This document shows positions 4,672 to 41,585 of a DNA stretch of 49,871 nucleotides, one piece after another. The notes under the pieces are model-generated. The model was given only the letters and a program-made list of their open reading frames with translations. It was not told where the DNA came from and searched no databases. A program made the translations under genes and the position numbers. Within the stretch, counting starts at the first letter, position 1. Each line of letters begins with the position of its first letter. Source of the stretch: an uncultured Alphaproteobacteria bacterium (GTDB taxonomy: Bacteria; Pseudomonadota; Alphaproteobacteria; Rhodobacterales; Rhodobacteraceae); assembly GCA_902599445.1 (NCBI GenBank), contig CACKFK010000012.1, positions 1-49,871 of the forward strand, in the 5' to 3' direction.

Positions 4672-4700
4672 TTGCCTATATCTATAAAAGATACTAAGAA
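4672..4700 (+). promoter_or_regulatory. Candidate recA promoter
   Basis: TTGCCT (4672-4677) and TAAGAA (4695-4700) are separated by 17 bases and resemble -35 and -10 boxes. The -10 overlaps the LexA-type box that starts at 4698, which is the geometry expected for repression. The -10 match is only moderate; TATAAA at 4683-4688 is an alternative. Confidence 0.45.
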
Positions 4701-4712
4701 CATATAGTGAAC
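4698..4712. promoter_or_regulatory. LexA (SOS) box upstream of recA
   Basis: GAAC-ATATAGT-GAAC is a perfect match to the alphaproteobacterial SOS box (GTTC-N7-GTTC read on the other strand). It lies 83 bases upstream of the recA ATG. LexA is expected to bind here and be released on DNA damage. The position in front of recA makes this the most secure regulatory site in the window. Confidence 0.88.
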
Positions 4713-4795: not shown

Positions 4796-5869
4796 ATGAC
4801 AAAGCTTATTAATTTCTCAGAAAGACTGGTGATGGATAAAGAAAAGGCACTTGAAACGGCAGTAGCCCAGATTGAGCGAAACTTTGGTAAGGGTTCAATA
4901 ATGAAATTGGGGCAGGAAAATCCGGTAATTGATATTGAATCCGTTTCAACAGGATCCATTAGTTTAGATATAGCCCTTGGGATAGGCGGGCTTCCCAAGG
5001 GCAGAATTATAGAGATATACGGTCCTGAAAGTTCAGGAAAAACAACCTTAGCGCTTCATGTGGTGGCGGAAGAGCAGAAGAAGGAAGGTATCTGTGCGTT
5101 TGTTGATGCAGAGCATGCTTTAGACCCTAATTATGCAAAAAAACTAGGGGTTAATTTGGATGAATTACTTATTTCTCAACCTGATACAGGGGAGCAAGCA
5201 TTGGAAATTACAGAAACATTGGTTAGATCTGGTGCTGTGTCATTGGTAGTTGTTGATTCTGTAGCAGCTTTAACCCCTAGATCAGAATTGGAAGGGGATA
5301 TGGGTGATGCACAAGTAGGAGCTCAAGCCAGGTTAATGAGTCAAGCGATGAGAAAGCTTACAGGTGCTATAAGTCGCTCTAATTGCATGGTAATCTTTAT
5401 AAACCAGATTAGAATGAAAATAGGGGTGATGTTTGGAAGCCCAGAGACCACAACTGGCGGAAATGCTTTGAAGTTTTATGCTTCAGTAAGGTTGGATATT
5501 CGGCGGATAGGGGCTTTAAAAGACCGTGATGAAATAGTTGGTAATGCAACCCGTGTTAAAGTAGTAAAGAACAAAGTCTCACCTCCTTTTAAGCAGGTTG
5601 AATTTGATATAATGTATGGAGAAGGCATCTCTAAGTCAGGTGAAATAATTGATTTAGGTGTCAAATTTGGCATCATCGAGAAGTCTGGTGCATGGTTTTC
5701 TTATGGTGAGGAGCGAATAGGGCAAGGTCGAGAAAATGCAAAGAAATTTTTAATTGAGAATCATGAACTAGCAGCAGAGATTGAAGGAAAGATTAGAAAT
5801 GCAAATGGTTTAGGAGATGAGCATTCTACGGAACTTGTCGGAGAAACAGCTCTTTTAGAAAAAGATTGA
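4796..5869 (+). CDS. recA: Recombinase RecA
   Basis: A 357-residue RecA, the usual length. The Walker A loop GPESSGKTT spans residues 76-84, [12 protein letters not shown] is the Walker B region, and [24 protein letters not shown] and [12 protein letters not shown] are the conserved core around the DNA-binding loops. It forms ATP-dependent filaments on single-stranded DNA for strand exchange and stimulates LexA self-cleavage. The tail is acidic, as usual. An AAGGAAA ribosome-binding site lies 7 bases before the ATG; a second ATG 12 codons in is possible but less well placed. It is preceded by a perfect LexA box and followed by alaS, a conserved alphaproteobacterial order. Confidence 0.98.
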
Positions 5870-5966: not shown

Positions 5967-8636
5967 ATGGTTGGACTAGCAGAAATTCGCACAACTTTTT
6001 TAGATTATTTTCAGAGAAAAGGACACGAGGTTGTCAACAGTTCTTCTCTAGTTCCAGATAATGACCCAACCCTGATGTTTACTAATTCAGGAATGGTTCA
6101 ATTTAAGAATGTTTTCACTGGCACAGAAAAAAGAAGTTATGAAACTGCTGTGACCAGTCAGAAATGTTTGCGTGCAGGTGGTAAACATAATGATTTGGAT
6201 AATGTAGGCTATACAGCACGCCATCACACCTTCTTTGAAATGTTAGGTAATTTCTCTTTTGGACATTACTTCAAAGAGGAAGCCATTCCTCTTGCATGGG
6301 ATTTGATAACAAAAGAATTTGCCTTACCAAAAGAGAAGTTACTAGTTACTGTTTACCATAATGATGAAGAGGCGATTAAAATTTGGGAAAAACATGCGGG
6401 ATTATCTCGATCGCAGATAATAAAAATAAACAGCACTGACAACTTCTGGTCTATGGGCTCGACAGGCCCCTGTGGCCCCTGTTCTGAGATATTCTTTGAC
6501 CATGGACCTAGAATACCAGGGGGGCCTCCCGGCTCTGCAAATGAAGATGGGGATAGATTTGTAGAAATCTGGAATTTAGTTTTTATGCAATACAATCAGT
6601 CAAAGGATGGCAATCGATCAAACTTACCAAAACCATCAATTGATACTGGTATGGGGTTGGAGCGAATGGGTGCTGTTCTACAAGGAACACACGATAACTT
6701 CAATACTGATCTTATGAGAGGACTAGTTGAGGAGTCAGCAAATTTGTCTTCCCAGGACCCAGATGGAGACATGAATGTCCATCATAGGGTGATTGCTGAT
6801 CACATTAGGTCAATAGCATTTTTGATAGCAGAGGGTATTTTCCCATCGAATGAAGGAAGAGGCTATGTTTTAAGACGGATAATGCGGAGAGCCATGCGTC
6901 ATGCTCATTTTCTGGGTGTGAAAGAACCTATGATGCATAAAATGGTTGGGGCATTAACTCGGGAGATGGGAACAGCGTTCCCTGAACTTATTGAAGCTAA
7001 GGAATTGATACAGGATAGTTTACACAATGAAGAGGTTAAATTCAAGACAACTTTAGATAGAGGGTTAAAGATTTTAGATTATGAAATCAATAAATTAAAA
7101 GGTGGAGATAAAGTATCAGGAGACGTTGCATTTAAGTTATATGATACATACGGTTTTCCGGTGGATTTGACGCAAGATACTCTTCGGGAGAGACAATTGC
7201 AGGTTGATTTAAAGGGCTTTGAGCGGGCAATGGAATTGCAGAAAGAAAGGGCAAGAAAGGCTTGGTCTGGATCAGGTGACAAAAAATTAGATGTTATTTG
7301 GTTTGAACTAGGCAGTAAATTAGGGGCAACGGAGTTCTTAGGGTACAATACGTTAAGATCAGAGGCAAAGGTTTTGTCTTTAGTAATTAAAGGAGTTGAG
7401 CAAGCGAAAGTTAGTACCAATGATTTAGTTGATGCAGTCTTTAACCAAACACCATTCTATGCTGAAAGCGGTGGTCAAGTGGCTGATGTGGGTAGAGCCT
7501 TTAATGATGAAATAGAGGCTATTATTGAAGATGTGCAGAAAATTGGAAATCTCTTTGTCCACAAATTAAGGGTGCTCAAAGGTAAAATTTCTGCTGGAGA
7601 TCTTCTAAGGCTGGAAGTACATAACTCAAATCGAGAAGGAATATCAGCTAACCACTCAGCAACTCACTTAATGCATCAAGCTTTGAAAGATGTGTTGGGG
7701 CCACATGTAAATCAGAGAGGATCTCTTAATGATGCTGAAAAAATCCGATTTGATTTTTCACATGACAGGCCTTTGTCAAGCAAGGATGTCATCCTCGTTG
7801 AGGAAATCGTTAACAAAAAAATCTTACAAAATTCCATTGTTTCTACAAGGCTTATGGACTTAAATGCTGCTAAGAAACTAGGAGCGCAAGCTCTTTTTGG
7901 CGAAAAATATGACGACGAAGTGCGTGTTGTTTTGATAGGTAATGTTGAGGAACGTAAATCAAGAATAGAAAATACAAATCATTACTCTATGGAGCTTTGT
8001 GGTGGCACCCATGTTGAAAGAACCGGAATGATAGGTTCTTTTGTCATTAAAGCTGAAATTGCTTCGAGCTCAGGTGTTAGGCGAATTGAGGCCTTAACTG
8101 GATTAAATGCATTGAATTTTGTTCAATCTAACCGCAGTAATATTTCAGAAATAGCGGTCATGTTAAAAGCTCCGGTTAATAAGATTGGTGAGAGAATAAA
8201 TACATTACTTTCAGATAAGAGATTACTTCTAGATCAAATTGCTGAACTGAAAAAAGGCGCAGGCAAGCTTTCTAATCAAAAAGAAGTTGACAATTATTCG
8301 AAGGAAATTCGTGGAGTGCATTTGGTGGTCAATACTTTAGATCAATTTGAAAGTAGGGAGATGAGGTCGTTAACCGATCAGCAAAAAAAGGAAATCAAGT
8401 CTGGTGTAATAATAAATTTATCTAAGGATCTCGATAAAATATCTTATACCGTTGGTGTAACTGCTAATTTGTGTAATGCTATTTCTGCTGTTGAAATTAT
8501 TAAAATTATTTCAAGTTTAACGAATGGCAAGGGTGGAGGCCGACCTGATTTTGCTCAAGGCGGTGGACATGGTATAGGAAAAATAGGAAGTATAATAAAA
8601 AAAGTGGAAAATTTCCTCGATCAAACCTTGGGTTGA
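5967..8636 (+). CDS. alaS: Alanine--tRNA ligase
   Basis: An 889-residue alanyl-tRNA synthetase, full length. The class II catalytic core occupies about residues 1-240 with LTPTLMFTNSGM-like and RHHTFFEMLGNFSFG segments (PTLMFTNSGMVQFK near 34). Editing-domain motifs follow: PFYAESGGQ near 495, the HSATHLMHQAL zinc/editing site near 563 and CGGTHVERTG near 675. The C-Ala domain ends with GKGGGRPDFAQGGG near 853. It charges tRNA-Ala and hydrolyses mischarged Ser/Gly-tRNA. An AGAGGGG ribosome-binding site precedes the ATG. It lies 97 bases after recA and converges on icd with a gap of only 17 bases, leaving no room for a classical terminator. Confidence 0.98.
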   Translation: MVGLAEIRTTFLDYFQRKGHEVVNSSSLVPDNDPTLMFTNSGMVQFKNVFTGTEKRSYETAVTSQKCLRAGGKHNDLDNVGYTARHHTFFEMLGNFSFGHYFKEEAIPLAWDLITKEFALPKEKLLVTVYHNDEEAIKIWEKHAGLSRSQIIKINSTDNFWSMGSTGPCGPCSEIFFDHGPRIPGGPPGSANEDGDRFVEIWNLVFMQYNQSKDGNRSNLPKPSIDTGMGLERMGAVLQGTHDNFNTDLMRGLVEESANLSSQDPDGDMNVHHRVIADHIRSIAFLIAEGIFPSNEGRGYVLRRIMRRAMRHAHFLGVKEPMMHKMVGALTREMGTAFPELIEAKELIQDSLHNEEVKFKTTLDRGLKILDYEINKLKGGDKVSGDVAFKLYDTYGFPVDLTQDTLRERQLQVDLKGFERAMELQKERARKAWSGSGDKKLDVIWFELGSKLGATEFLGYNTLRSEAKVLSLVIKGVEQAKVSTNDLVDAVFNQTPFYAESGGQVADVGRAFNDEIEAIIEDVQKIGNLFVHKLRVLKGKISAGDLLRLEVHNSNREGISANHSATHLMHQALKDVLGPHVNQRGSLNDAEKIRFDFSHDRPLSSKDVILVEEIVNKKILQNSIVSTRLMDLNAAKKLGAQALFGEKYDDEVRVVLIGNVEERKSRIENTNHYSMELCGGTHVERTGMIGSFVIKAEIASSSGVRRIEALTGLNALNFVQSNRSNISEIAVMLKAPVNKIGERINTLLSDKRLLLDQIAELKKGAGKLSNQKEVDNYSKEIRGVHLVVNTLDQFESREMRSLTDQQKKEIKSGVIINLSKDLDKISYTVGVTANLCNAISAVEIIKIISSLTNGKGGGRPDFAQGGGHGIGKIGSIIKKVENFLDQTLG

Positions 8637-33035: not shown

Positions 33036-35138
33036 ATGAAATTAGTCAGCAGACCGGAATATCTTTTTGCTCTATTTGGTAACCTTACTAAATTGGAAGG
33101 TGTTGGACGGCGGACAACTACTCACCTTACTAAGATTAGGATATCCAAGCCCATAGACTTTCTATATTCAATGCCAATAGGCATGAAGCGAAGGAAATTG
33201 GTGAAAGTCGTTAATGATGAAAACCTAAATGATAACATCATTATAAAAGTAATTGTTAGAAAGCATATTTTTAAGAGGTTTCGATTTCCATCGGTTATTG
33301 AAGTTACTGATACTGTAAGTAAGTTTAATCTCGTATTCTTTAATGCAAAGCGTGAATGGTTGGTTGCAAATTTCCCAATTAATAAAGATCTTGTTATCTC
33401 GGGAAAATTGGAAAGGTTCAATAATGTGTTCCAAATAATACATCCGGAATACATACAAGGATCAAATCAAACTATGGCAATCCCAACTGAGGAAACTTTA
33501 TACTCCCTTACAAGAGGGGTGTCTCAAAAATTATTTTTTCGGTCTGTTCAAAAAGTATTAAAAATGATTCCTAAGGAAGTGAATGACATTGAGTGGATTA
33601 AAAGTAATAGAATTTCTAGTAATGGATGGAAAGGTTATAAAGAGAGCCTTGAGAGAGTTCATAATCCACAATCTGATGATGATTTTTCCTTGAATTCTCC
33701 ATTTCGTCTTCGTTTAGCCTATGACGACTTATTTAGCCACCAGGTTTGTCTGGCTCTTGCGCGGAAAAAGGTTAGAGATTCGAGTAAGAACCGTAAGCCA
33801 ATTTTGGGACAATTATCTCAAAAACTCGTTAAGAAATTGCCATTTGAGTTAACGAAAGCTCAAGTTCGCTGCATAGGGGAAGTTAAAACTGATTTATCAA
33901 ATCCTCCCCCAATGTTTAGATTGCTGCAGGGTGATGTAGGGTCTGGTAAGACTCTGGTGGCATTCGTTTCAATGCTCTTTATAACAGAAAATGAGGGTCA
34001 GTGTGCCCTAATGGCTCCTACAGATCTATTAGCACAACAGCATCACCGGAATTTAACGAAACTTATCAAGGATATTGGTGTTAAAACAGCAATACTAACT
34101 GGAAAAATAAAGCCGAAGGTTAGAGAGCAAAGGTTGGAAGAGATAAGGACTGGTTCTGTCCAAATAATAATAGGGACTCATGCTCTCTTCCAAAAAGACG
34201 TCCAATTTAAGAATCTGCAATTAGCAGTTATAGATGAGCAACATAGGTTTGGAGTGAAGCAAAGGTTTGATCTTATCAAAAAAGGAGATTTAATTGATAT
34301 ATTAGTAATGACCGCCACCCCTATACCTAGGACTTTACAGTTGTCCAATTATGGTGACTTAGATGTTTCTATAATTGACCAAAAACCTCTGAATAGAAAG
34401 AAAATCAATACGGCGGTCATTTCTGAGTCAAAGACTGAACCTTTATTGAAAAGACTCAGATTAGCTTGCGAAAGAGGAGAACAGGCTTATTGGGTTTGCC
34501 CCCTAATAGAAGAGGCAGAAAATTCAGAATTAGTCGCTCTAGAGAAACGTTTTAAGACGCTAAGGAAATTCTGTCCAAATTTAAATGTAAAAATTTTACA
34601 TGGGAAAATGCCTGAAGAGGAAAAAAATGATATTATGCAATCTTTTCTTAATGGTATGATTGATATTTTGTTAGCTACAACAGTAATTGAAGTTGGTATT
34701 GATGTTCCAAATGCTTCAATAATGATTATAGAAGGAGCCGAACGCTTTGGTCTTGCACAACTCCACCAGTTACGTGGGAGAGTCGGCCGTGGGGATCTAC
34801 ATTCAAGCTGTACCTTAGTTTATTCGAATCATTTGAGTAAGGCTGGTAAAGAAAGATTGGAAATTTTAAGAAATAATAGCGATGGGTTTCATATAGCTGA
34901 AGAAGATTTGAAAATGCGAGGAGGTGGAGATCCCTTAGGTTTCCAACAATCTGGAATTCCAAAGTTCAGGTTAGCAGATCTGGGATGCCATTCTGATATT
35001 TTGTCATGGGCTCAGGAAGATGCACGTGCACTCATACATAGGAATCCATCTTTAAAAGATGCGGAGGGATACAACATACGATTATTATTATTCCTAATGG
35101 GGAGAGAAGAATCTTTGTCATTAATCAGGTCAAGTTAA
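33036..35138 (+). CDS. recG: ATP-dependent DNA helicase RecG
   Basis: A 700-residue superfamily 2 helicase that remodels stalled forks and Holliday junctions. The N-terminal wedge/OB domain spans about residues 50-200. Helicase motif I is GDVGSGKT near 302, motif II IDEQHRFG near 399 (DEQH box), motif III MTATPIPRTL, and motifs V/VI TTVIEVGIDVPNA and QLRGRVGRG, followed by the TRG element. All are intact. It follows ligA on the same strand. No LexA box is present at its start; one lies just after its stop codon. Confidence 0.96.
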   Translation: MKLVSRPEYLFALFGNLTKLEGVGRRTTTHLTKIRISKPIDFLYSMPIGMKRRKLVKVVNDENLNDNIIIKVIVRKHIFKRFRFPSVIEVTDTVSKFNLVFFNAKREWLVANFPINKDLVISGKLERFNNVFQIIHPEYIQGSNQTMAIPTEETLYSLTRGVSQKLFFRSVQKVLKMIPKEVNDIEWIKSNRISSNGWKGYKESLERVHNPQSDDDFSLNSPFRLRLAYDDLFSHQVCLALARKKVRDSSKNRKPILGQLSQKLVKKLPFELTKAQVRCIGEVKTDLSNPPPMFRLLQGDVGSGKTLVAFVSMLFITENEGQCALMAPTDLLAQQHHRNLTKLIKDIGVKTAILTGKIKPKVREQRLEEIRTGSVQIIIGTHALFQKDVQFKNLQLAVIDEQHRFGVKQRFDLIKKGDLIDILVMTATPIPRTLQLSNYGDLDVSIIDQKPLNRKKINTAVISESKTEPLLKRLRLACERGEQAYWVCPLIEEAENSELVALEKRFKTLRKFCPNLNVKILHGKMPEEEKNDIMQSFLNGMIDILLATTVIEVGIDVPNASIMIIEGAERFGLAQLHQLRGRVGRGDLHSSCTLVYSNHLSKAGKERLEILRNNSDGFHIAEEDLKMRGGGDPLGFQQSGIPKFRLADLGCHSDILSWAQEDARALIHRNPSLKDAEGYNIRLLLFLMGREESLSLIRSS

Positions 35139-35159
35139 ATTTCTTCTTTACAACATCAA

Positions 35160-35165
35160 TATAAT
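35160..35165 (+). promoter_or_regulatory. Candidate -10 box for the small SOS-box ORF
   Basis: TATAAT is a perfect -10 consensus 12 bases upstream of the LexA-type box, but no good -35 precedes it at 16-18 bases. An alternative is TTTACA (35147-35152) with a 17-base spacer to TAGGTT (35170-35175), which would place the LexA box directly after the -10, as at recA. Confidence 0.4.
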
Positions 35166-35176
35166 TCGATAGGTTA

Positions 35177-35191
35177 GAACAAAACATGAAC
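35177..35191. promoter_or_regulatory. Second LexA (SOS) box, downstream of recG
   Basis: GAAC-AAAACAT-GAAC is a perfect GAAC-N7-GAAC site, the same motif as in the recA promoter. It lies 39 bases after recG and 13 bases before the start codon of a 36-codon ORF. Its position between a candidate promoter and that ORF suggests repression by LexA. The match alone is short enough to occur by chance about once in a window of this size, so its intergenic location next to an ORF start is what gives it weight. Confidence 0.68.
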
Positions 35192-35204
35192 ATATAGGTT
35201 TGAA

Positions 35205-35315
35205 ATGGCTACAGAAATTTTATCAAAAGTTAAATTCTTCGGCAAAACGAGTGCTCTAGCATTGACAATATTATTGGTTAATTATCTAATAATAATGGTA
35301 TTTTGTAATTTTTAG
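35205..35315 (+). CDS. Candidate SOS-controlled 36-residue membrane peptide
   Basis: This ORF runs from ATG at 35205 to TAG at 35313. The product has a short Lys-rich N-terminus (three lysines in the first 14 residues) and one hydrophobic segment from about residue 17 to the C-terminus, so it should insert with the N-terminus inside. A weak AGG lies six bases before the ATG. A perfect LexA-type box lies just upstream. In Caulobacter the SOS-induced SidA is a 29-residue single-span peptide that blocks division through late divisome proteins, so a similar role is a reasonable guess from layout. No sequence similarity to SidA is claimed. The ORF could also be chance in AT-rich DNA, where hydrophobic codons are common. 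Confidence 0.45.
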   Translation: MATEILSKVKFFGKTSALALTILLVNYLIIMVFCNF

Positions 35316-35326
35316 TTGATTTCCCA

Positions 35327-35740
35327 TTATTTTTCTTGGAGTGCATTCTTTGTTGCCTCGAGCACTAAGAGAATTGATGCGTGGCGATTCTTGAAATCGG
35401 TGGCCGGGCGTAGTAATTCGTAGTTTGAAAAAGGGGGGGCTGGGGCTGGCAAATTTTTTTCGAGCATGCCTTTTACAGAATTATGTAAAGCACTTATTTC
35501 GGGGAGATCCAAACCTATAATGTTATTAGCTAGAATTGATGCAGAGGCTTGACCTAATGCACAAGCTTTTACCTCTTGTCGGAATTCTTTGATTCTACCT
35601 TGGTGTTGATTAATGTAAACTGTAATTGCAGAACCACATATGGGTGATCTGAGAGATACTGTCTTGTCAGCATTATCAATTTTACCTATGAGAGGTATTT
35701 CGGTAGCTAGTTTGAGGATCTTTTCAGTATACAGTTTCAT
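35327..35740 (-). CDS. NifU/IscU-like iron-sulfur scaffold family protein
   Basis: A 137-residue protein of the IscU/NifU N-terminal family. Conserved cysteines are seen in SPICGSAITVYI near residue 34 and EVKACALGQASASIL near 58; the third IscU ligand region near residue 106 lacks a cysteine (PATDFKNRHAS), so it is a divergent member, as in the separate alphaproteobacterial IscU-like group. It may bind or transfer an iron-sulfur cluster, but an enzymatic scaffold role is not proven. It is the last gene of the minus-strand run from ssb, with 137 bases between it and gluQ, so it probably has its own promoter. Confidence 0.82.
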   Translation of the reverse strand: MKLYTEKILKLATEIPLIGKIDNADKTVSLRSPICGSAITVYINQHQGRIKEFRQEVKACALGQASASILANNIIGLDLPEISALHNSVKGMLEKNLPAPAPPFSNYELLRPATDFKNRHASILLVLEATKNALQEK

Positions 35741-35877
35741 TTTCTATCGAATAACTTGTCTATGCATCAATTTAAAAATTAGATAACTCTTGTACAATAT
35801 GAAGTAATCAGATTGAGTTTTAAAGGAATTCTAGTACCGAAAAGGATTTGTGACAATGTGTCTTTAACTCGGATGTC

Positions 35878-36732
35878 TTAATTACTGTTGCAAACAAGCA
35901 TAGATTTAATTGTTTCCAAGTCTTTTCCAGATTCCCTAAAGTTTAAGATACTTTCAGATCCTTTGCTCTTAGACAACTTATGACCATGGCCATCTGTGAT
36001 TAAAGGGTGGTGCACATATTTAGGGGTATTAAAATCTAATAGCTTTTGTAAAAGTATGTGCATGGGTGTTATATAAAATAAATCATTTCCCCGGGACACA
36101 TGTGTGATTTTTTGGCAGGCGTCGTCTACTGTAACAGAAAGATGGTAGGATGTGTTAATATCTCTTCTAGCTATTATGAAGTCACCGTAATTTTTTGCCA
36201 GCGAATCTAGAGAAACAACTTGAGTGCCGCTCTCACCATTTGGGCCAGTACCTTCCTCACAAAAATTTAAGGTATTTTTTTTTAGATAAGCTATCGATTT
36301 CACAATGTTAAGTCTAATGTTTTGGTTATCAAGAGATAGGTTCTTTTCTCGGCAGGTTCCTGGGTATACTGTTGTGTTAGAGTTCTTTCTGGGCGTATTA
36401 GGTGCTGAGAGAGCTCTTTTTATATCTGACCTTGTACAGTCGCAACCATATGTTAGACCTTTTTTTGCAAGCTTTTTCAGATAATATGAGTAACATGATA
36501 ACCTATCAGATTGCCTTATTGGAGTATCATTCCAATGAATACCCAGCCATTTTAGGTCTCTATATATTTGTTTTTCAAAATCAGAGGTGCATCTGGTCTT
36601 ATCTATGTCTTCTATTCTCAGGAGTAAGGAACCAGAATTATTTTCAACGAGATTTTGCGTCAAAAATGCAGAATAAGCATGCCCGAGGTGTAATAGTCCA
36701 GTGGGGGAGGGTGCAAATCTTGAAATAAGCAT
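35878..36732 (-). CDS. gluQ: Glutamyl-Q tRNA(Asp) synthetase GluQ
   Basis: A 284-residue protein corresponding to the catalytic half of a glutamyl-tRNA synthetase without an anticodon-binding domain. The class I motifs are HLGHAYSAF near residue 16 and KLSKSKGSE near 257. RFAPSPTGLLHLG opens the protein, and LLRIEDIDKTRC follows. It attaches glutamate to queuosine at position 34 of tRNA-Asp. The ATG overlaps the trmFO stop (TAATG), so the two are coupled. Confidence 0.93.
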   Translation of the reverse strand: MLISRFAPSPTGLLHLGHAYSAFLTQNLVENNSGSLLLRIEDIDKTRCTSDFEKQIYRDLKWLGIHWNDTPIRQSDRLSCYSYYLKKLAKKGLTYGCDCTRSDIKRALSAPNTPRKNSNTTVYPGTCREKNLSLDNQNIRLNIVKSIAYLKKNTLNFCEEGTGPNGESGTQVVSLDSLAKNYGDFIIARRDINTSYHLSVTVDDACQKITHVSRGNDLFYITPMHILLQKLLDFNTPKYVHHPLITDGHGHKLSKSKGSESILNFRESGKDLETIKSMLVCNSN

Positions 36733-41425: not shown

Positions 41426-41585
41426 ATTTACCTCCATAAAACCAATATTGAAGTAAGATATGTTTTTTTTTCAATTATTTAAACCTAAATTTTCACGCCA
41501 GACATTTACTATTTCAAAATCATGAATAAGTAGTTAAAACACAGACTTCTTGGTACCAAAATTGGATAATGGATGGGCTACCCAA

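Follow-up and report, generated by a model that had tools for sequence, protein, structure and literature searches.

A LexA-type box and a short open reading frame (ORF) are found directly behind recG in the window, the 49,871-nucleotide stretch of DNA analyzed here. Their arrangement raises the question of whether a chance sequence match happens to precede coding noise, or whether the two elements form a gene of the SOS response, and in the latter case what its product might do.

The locus behind recG

The recG gene (ATP-dependent DNA helicase RecG; positions 33036 to 35138, plus strand) marks the place. Its match to NCBIfam model NF008164, at 843 bits and above the cut-off, bears out a first-pass annotation that located the peptide just after recG. 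The box, GAACAAAACATGAAC (35177 to 35191, plus strand), is recognized by its sequence pattern and is kept at the same place across the genus. After a gap of 13 bases, it is followed by an unannotated ORF for a 36-residue, single-span membrane peptide, MATEILSKVKFFGKTSALALTILLVNYLIIMVFCNF (35205 to 35315, plus strand), whose identification is based on the reading frame, hydropathy and conservation. Both features have exactly the sequence and coordinates first given for them. The box was also said to be identical in form to the recA box, and the region upstream of recA (4796 to 5869, TIGR02012) does contain an exact pattern match, GAACATATAGTGAAC (4698 to 4712, plus strand). The most hydrophobic 18-residue stretch of the peptide begins at residue 17 (mean hydropathy 2.57), and a single-sequence fold consists of one predicted helix, residues 3 to 35 (mean pLDDT 80.5), consistent with the original description of one hydrophobic span and a Lys-bearing N terminus.

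Upstream of the box, TTTACA (35147 to 35152, plus strand) is a probable -35 element, and the spot is conserved in that TTTAC also occurs in the operator consensus of the core family described below. The previously reported TATAAT is present (35160 to 35165, plus strand) but is doubtful as a -10 element, because with a spacing of 7 bases it is too close to TTTACA for pairing; TAGGTT (35170 to 35175) would give a 17-base spacing. A consensus promoter scan found no plus-strand promoter in the interval containing the box and the ORF. The ribosome-binding site is weak, as originally judged, and consists only of AGG (35196 to 35198). The stop codon of the peptide (35315) is separated by 11 bases from the end of a convergent SufU/NifU-like scaffold gene (35327 to 35740, minus strand; Pfam NifU_N above the cut-off, SUF_scaf_2 below its cut-off). 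Because the gap is so short and no terminator was found between the peptide stop and this gene, an SOS transcript may run antisense into the SufU/NifU-like gene.

The box by itself was rejected as evidence. Three exact GAAC-N7-GAAC boxes are present in the window, where 1.11 are expected, a figure that agrees with the earlier estimate of about one chance box, and at least three occurred in 11 of 100 shuffles. Nor is the pattern enriched genome-wide, with 38 matches compared with 58 for the reversed pattern used as a control. The case therefore rests on conservation. The 15-mer box of the window is found one more time in the genome (G000:C1:64870-64884, positions 1501 to 1515 of locus L002), where an ImuB-like gene (Pfam IMS, DUF6504), of a kind that belongs to the SOS response, has its start codon inside the operator. 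The third exact box in the window (6040 to 6054, minus strand) lies inside a long ORF (5967 to 8636) and is probably a chance match. No box, either exact or with one mismatch, is present in the window between the ssb-like gene and uvrA (41438 to 41549), although many bacteria have uvrA under SOS control.

A recG-linked peptide family and its operator

The first-pass annotation had suggested that relatives be inspected for stop codons or frameshifts in the ORF, for loss of the box, and for synonymous-biased substitution. Among 11 sister genomes, seven have a full-length RecG match and three have no match; the weak match in the remaining one lies inside a much longer frame and is probably Mfd. 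The genus set consists of the window and the seven sisters with full-length RecG. In all eight genomes, an exact box is located 38 to 42 bases 3' of the recG stop codon and is followed by an intact ORF, which can be read as a 36-residue peptide that contains a single hydrophobic stretch and ends in Asn-Phe. (For L341 this reading starts at a later ATG, since the first one would yield 40 residues.) The box reads GAACAAAACAAGAAC in seven of the eight and GAACAAAACATGAAC in the window. Close pairs lean toward synonymous change, with pS values of 0.69 to 0.76 and pN values of 0.15 to 0.17 for L344 compared with L345-L347, and pS values of 0.54 and 0.71 with a pN of 0.23 for the window compared with L342 and L343. 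Deeper genus pairs are saturated (pS about 0.5 to 0.7, pN about 0.5) and are therefore uninformative on selection.

Beyond the genus, the peptide belongs to a set of peptides that almost every sampled genome of the window's taxonomic family retains behind recG; we judge this taxonomic family, by the names of near relatives (Rhodobacteraceae or Paracoccaceae), to be Rhodobacteraceae. RecG was found in all 196 genomes placed in this family. Of the 29 best loci other than the window's, 26 have an exact box within 500 bases 3' of recG, and small ORFs come after it. A core profile was built from 22 recG-linked peptides, with the window's genus left out, and at a threshold of E <= 0.01 it matches in 183 of the 196 genomes and in 87 of 88 genera. 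Thirteen genomes give no profile match: the window's own, nine from genus g7 and three from genus g37. In 11 of the 12 other than the window's, recG is followed by an exact box and by a small ORF that encodes the D-x-x-G...L-P core. Seven of these 11 (L168, L169, L171, L172, L173, L175 and L180, of genus g7) are readable as 31 residues, a form in which the N-terminal arm is almost absent and the D-x-x-G...L-P core and the box are retained. The twelfth genome, G185 (L174), has neither a box nor a matching peptide behind recG. Genus g7 is counted among the 87 matched genera solely through a marginal match (E 0.0064) in G022 (L177), which likewise lacks both the box and a matching peptide at this place. 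Both G185 and G022 are possible losses or moves of the peptide locus.

Places were listed for 149 recG genes and 150 peptides, and for both in 133 genomes; because they are drawn from the matches listed, the sets of 133 and 150 loci lean to stronger matches. In 132 of the 133 genomes, the peptide lies on the strand of recG and 99 to 633 bp behind it, with the 633-bp distance in G014 (L211, G014:C22:452197-452626), and the exception is G117 (L210, G117:C2:109698-110124), in which the peptide is 66 kb from recG. In a sample of 289 genomes from the class, strong profile matches occur solely in three other genomes of the window's taxonomic family. Seven further matches are marginal (E 0.0017 to 0.0096), and two of these have an in-frame stop.

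The operator was analyzed in the 150 listed peptide loci (30 from the profile search and 120 fetched upstream regions). At least one exact box is present in the 250 bases upstream of the peptide in 146 of them, whereas resampling that preserved neighbor frequencies (50 rounds) gave a mean of 1.7 loci with a box and a maximum of 5. The four loci that have no exact box (G041, G038, G008 and G142) contain, by eye, clustered near-match half-sites, and the displaced copies in G117 and G014 both retain the operator. Anchored on the GTTC-form box nearest the start, the consensus of the 146 loci is GTTCnCaAATGTTCTcAaAAAGTTCTTTACa, roughly a dozen variable bases, and taTGAGAACAAAgnggCAACA. A GAAC-N7-NAAC site lies downstream of the anchor box in every one of the 146, and the window's single box corresponds, by eye, to the second site of this core operator. 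As a control, recG loci of other families were searched, and a box lies within 300 bases in one of 28, these being the best-scoring of 137 other-family genomes with a RecG match. The one locus, L192, belongs to another family of the class and has GAACAAAAATAGAAC after recG. LexA was found in all seven related genomes tested (one confirmed as TIGR00498), each with a box 16 to 45 bases before the lexA start; the search found no lexA in the window's own, 60% complete assembly.

These counts bear on the simplest negative answer, namely a chance box in front of a meaningless ORF. About one box is indeed expected in the window, and the pattern is unenriched in the genome. However, retention of the box in eight of eight genus genomes with recG and in 146 of 150 listed family loci, compared with one of 28 loci in other families, leaves this explanation with practically no probability.

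Selection on the peptide and the place of the window copy

Every one of the 150 listed family peptides contains an 18-residue stretch with a mean hydropathy of at least 1.8, and in every one Lys and Arg are more common before the hydrophobic stretch than after it. Exactly 40 residues is the length of 109 of the 150. All 150 start with ATG, which carries no weight because the choice of starts favored ATG. For 41 independent pairs chosen on total divergence, dN/dS is 0.17 (bootstrap 95% interval 0.13 to 0.21), and differences at the first, second and third codon positions number 257, 87 and 561, so that the synonymous bias that had been sought is seen in close family pairs as it is in close genus pairs. 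An earlier pooling of 67 pairs chosen by pS gave 0.51 and is superseded by selection on total divergence.

Alternately, the box might drive an untranslated RNA or leader within which the ORF is incidental. The weak ribosome-binding site in the window would suit such an arrangement, but the dN/dS value, the distribution of differences over codon positions, the constant length of most listed peptides and the lack of any Rfam match in positions 34900 to 35900 all argue for a translated product, and they make an untranslated RNA very improbable. On sequence grounds, LexA control and translation of the window ORF appear nearly certain, in keeping with the original proposal of a LexA site governing a translated membrane peptide, which the comparisons for stop codons, frameshifts and box loss did not overturn.

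Conservation within the peptide is concentrated in a few residues. In 109 aligned peptides of equal length, D19 is present in 108, G22 in 109, L34 in 108 and P37 in 108. This signature, D19-x-x-G22...L34-x-L-P37, falls on one face of a helix, and conservation follows helical periodicity across residues 19 to 37 (p 0.005); the helix-face test is weaker in two other stretches (p 0.046 and 0.083). A charge at residues 20 to 36 is found in none of the 109 aligned core members. An uncharged span with one conserved face suits packing on a protein.

The window copy is a member of the family by its place, operator, size and topology. It is a short ORF directly 3' of recG on the same strand, a LexA operator lies between recG and the ORF, and a single hydrophobic span follows a Lys/Arg-bearing N terminus. 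However, its own sequence gives no sign of kinship. It does not carry the core signature D-x-x-G...L-x-L-P, the core profile misses it, and against the core family its score is equalled or exceeded by 172 of 400 segment-kept shuffles. Profile-profile comparison of the window's group with the core gives a probability of 2.3. A claim of kinship to the core family from the sequence of the window peptide alone was dropped, since profile, profile-profile and shuffle tests all failed. Compared with their own shuffles, sisters L009, L010 and L022 beat 400, 399 and 398 of 400, respectively; the deeper sister L011 beats 285, with 115 scoring as well, and is not distinct.

The window copy is most simply explained by descent with rapid drift. 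Alternatively, another peptide may have replaced it under the same operator. The first-pass annotation had suggested a possible independent peptide of the SidA kind; its description as a LexA-linked, single-span peptide stands, but the peptide is not a lone one and is rather a divergent local form of the recG-linked family. At the level of comparative evidence, the gene, its conservation, its operator, selection on the protein and one hydrophobic span are established.

Possible roles in the SOS response

The window peptide has no Pfam match at E <= 1 and no NCBIfam match, and the 22 core peptides have no match in Pfam, NCBIfam or PHROGs. The core profile has no relative in the PDB, and a search of plasmids and phages with one core peptide as the query gave no match. 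A weak match of a Planktomarina-type peptide to an NCBIfam transposase model (E 0.064) was taken as noise. The literature searched (titles and abstract openings, with subscription papers mostly outside this coverage) contains no report of a recG-linked peptide, and the terms recG and SidA do not occur in the available portion of PMC6473078. Small membrane peptides of the SOS type are known as a kind; as far as seen within the searches made, the recG-linked family is apparently undescribed.

The reading that we prefer, with a probability of roughly 0.55 for the mechanism as a whole, is that the peptide blocks late division in the manner of SidA and is under LexA repression. Bound at the window box, LexA would repress the gene for a 36-residue inner-membrane peptide, and cleavage of LexA after DNA damage would derepress it. 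The peptide would insert into the membrane, its Lys-bearing N terminus facing the cytoplasm, and the conserved helix face might pack on a membrane helix of a late divisome protein (FtsW, FtsI or FtsN). Septum synthesis would thereby be held back until repair is complete, as by SidA in Caulobacter. A division inhibitor is favored because SulA (Pfam PF03846) is found in none of 61 family genomes, the window's own included, because the span is uncharged and has a conserved face, and because the window leaves little room for an antisense RNA.

Several known systems resemble this proposal, as described in the available parts of the articles cited. SidA of Caulobacter crescentus is likewise alphaproteobacterial and LexA-controlled, with 29 residues and one inner-membrane span (PMC4211646), and the filamentation of Caulobacter lexA-null cells depends on sidA (PMC12700426). 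However, the link to FtsW and division belongs to SidA, the recG-linked peptide is likened to it by description and not by sequence, and strong profile matches of the recG-linked peptide are confined to its own taxonomic family in the 289-genome class sample. Late division is blocked by the small membrane proteins SidA, YneA, SosA and ChiZ, each of which has been modelled on FtsW, with low confidence (PMC13396833). YneA, SosA and ChiZ are also induced by DNA damage, but YneA and ChiZ include a LysM domain (PMC13396833), whereas the window peptide has no Pfam match. DidA, also of Caulobacter, is a damage-induced, single-span inhibitor that acts at FtsW/I/N; in contrast to the window peptide, which has an exact LexA box upstream, it is 71 residues long and LexA-independent (PMC4211646). 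SulA is similar in role as the SOS division inhibitor of E. coli (PMC4211646), but it acts on FtsZ, and again the window peptide lacks a Pfam match.

The peptide might instead resemble TisB or DinQ of E. coli, SOS-induced single-span peptides of similar size (PMC3567139), and lower the membrane potential so that growth slows or stops with no divisome target. DinQ in particular, a LexA-controlled, 27-residue, depolarizing peptide, fits in size and regulation. However, according to the available text, both DinQ and TisB belong to the type I toxins, which antisense RNAs and RNA processing keep in check (PMC3567139). The 13 bases between box and start and the 11 bases between stop and next gene leave little antisense room in the window, and the Rfam search noted above, which covers known RNA families, found no match there. 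The core span is also uncharged in 109 of 109 aligned members, with its fixed residues on one face, and we regard a depolarizing peptide as improbable.

As a further alternative, the peptide may be a LexA-controlled membrane regulator that acts elsewhere, for example on the gene transfer agent pathway, an envelope sensor, a transporter or a protease. The targets of single-span peptides are diverse. In Rhodobacter capsulatus, moreover, LexA control extends to cckA and to the gene transfer agent (a finding cited in the available portion of PMC6473078). On the other side, retention of the SOS operator by almost every genome sampled speaks for a core function in the damage response, and the searches of phages with one core peptide and of PHROGs with 22 gave no match. 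We regard another target as unlikely, if worth bearing in mind.

The preferred reading, a blocker of late division, can be extended to the whole of the Rhodobacterales, which we take to be the order of the group. In this extension, to which we give slightly less than even odds, an unrecognized, fast-evolving family would constitute the SOS division checkpoint of the order, with an origin separate from that of SidA. Its core would be a bare helix whose D-x-x-G face and C-terminal Leu-Pro dock on a divisome membrane helix. One genus would have cut the peptide to about 31 residues, and the window lineage would have drifted in sequence beyond recognition while keeping operator, place and length. 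If the family did arise separately from SidA, bacteria would have re-invented SOS division brakes repeatedly.

The locus also illustrates that short peptides beyond the reach of sequence search can be followed through their operator and synteny. The group includes much-used laboratory organisms, among them Rhodobacter, Dinoroseobacter and Paracoccus, and no explanation of its division arrest after DNA damage was found in the literature searched. The peptide behind recG is a good candidate for the brake that would act on division in this situation.
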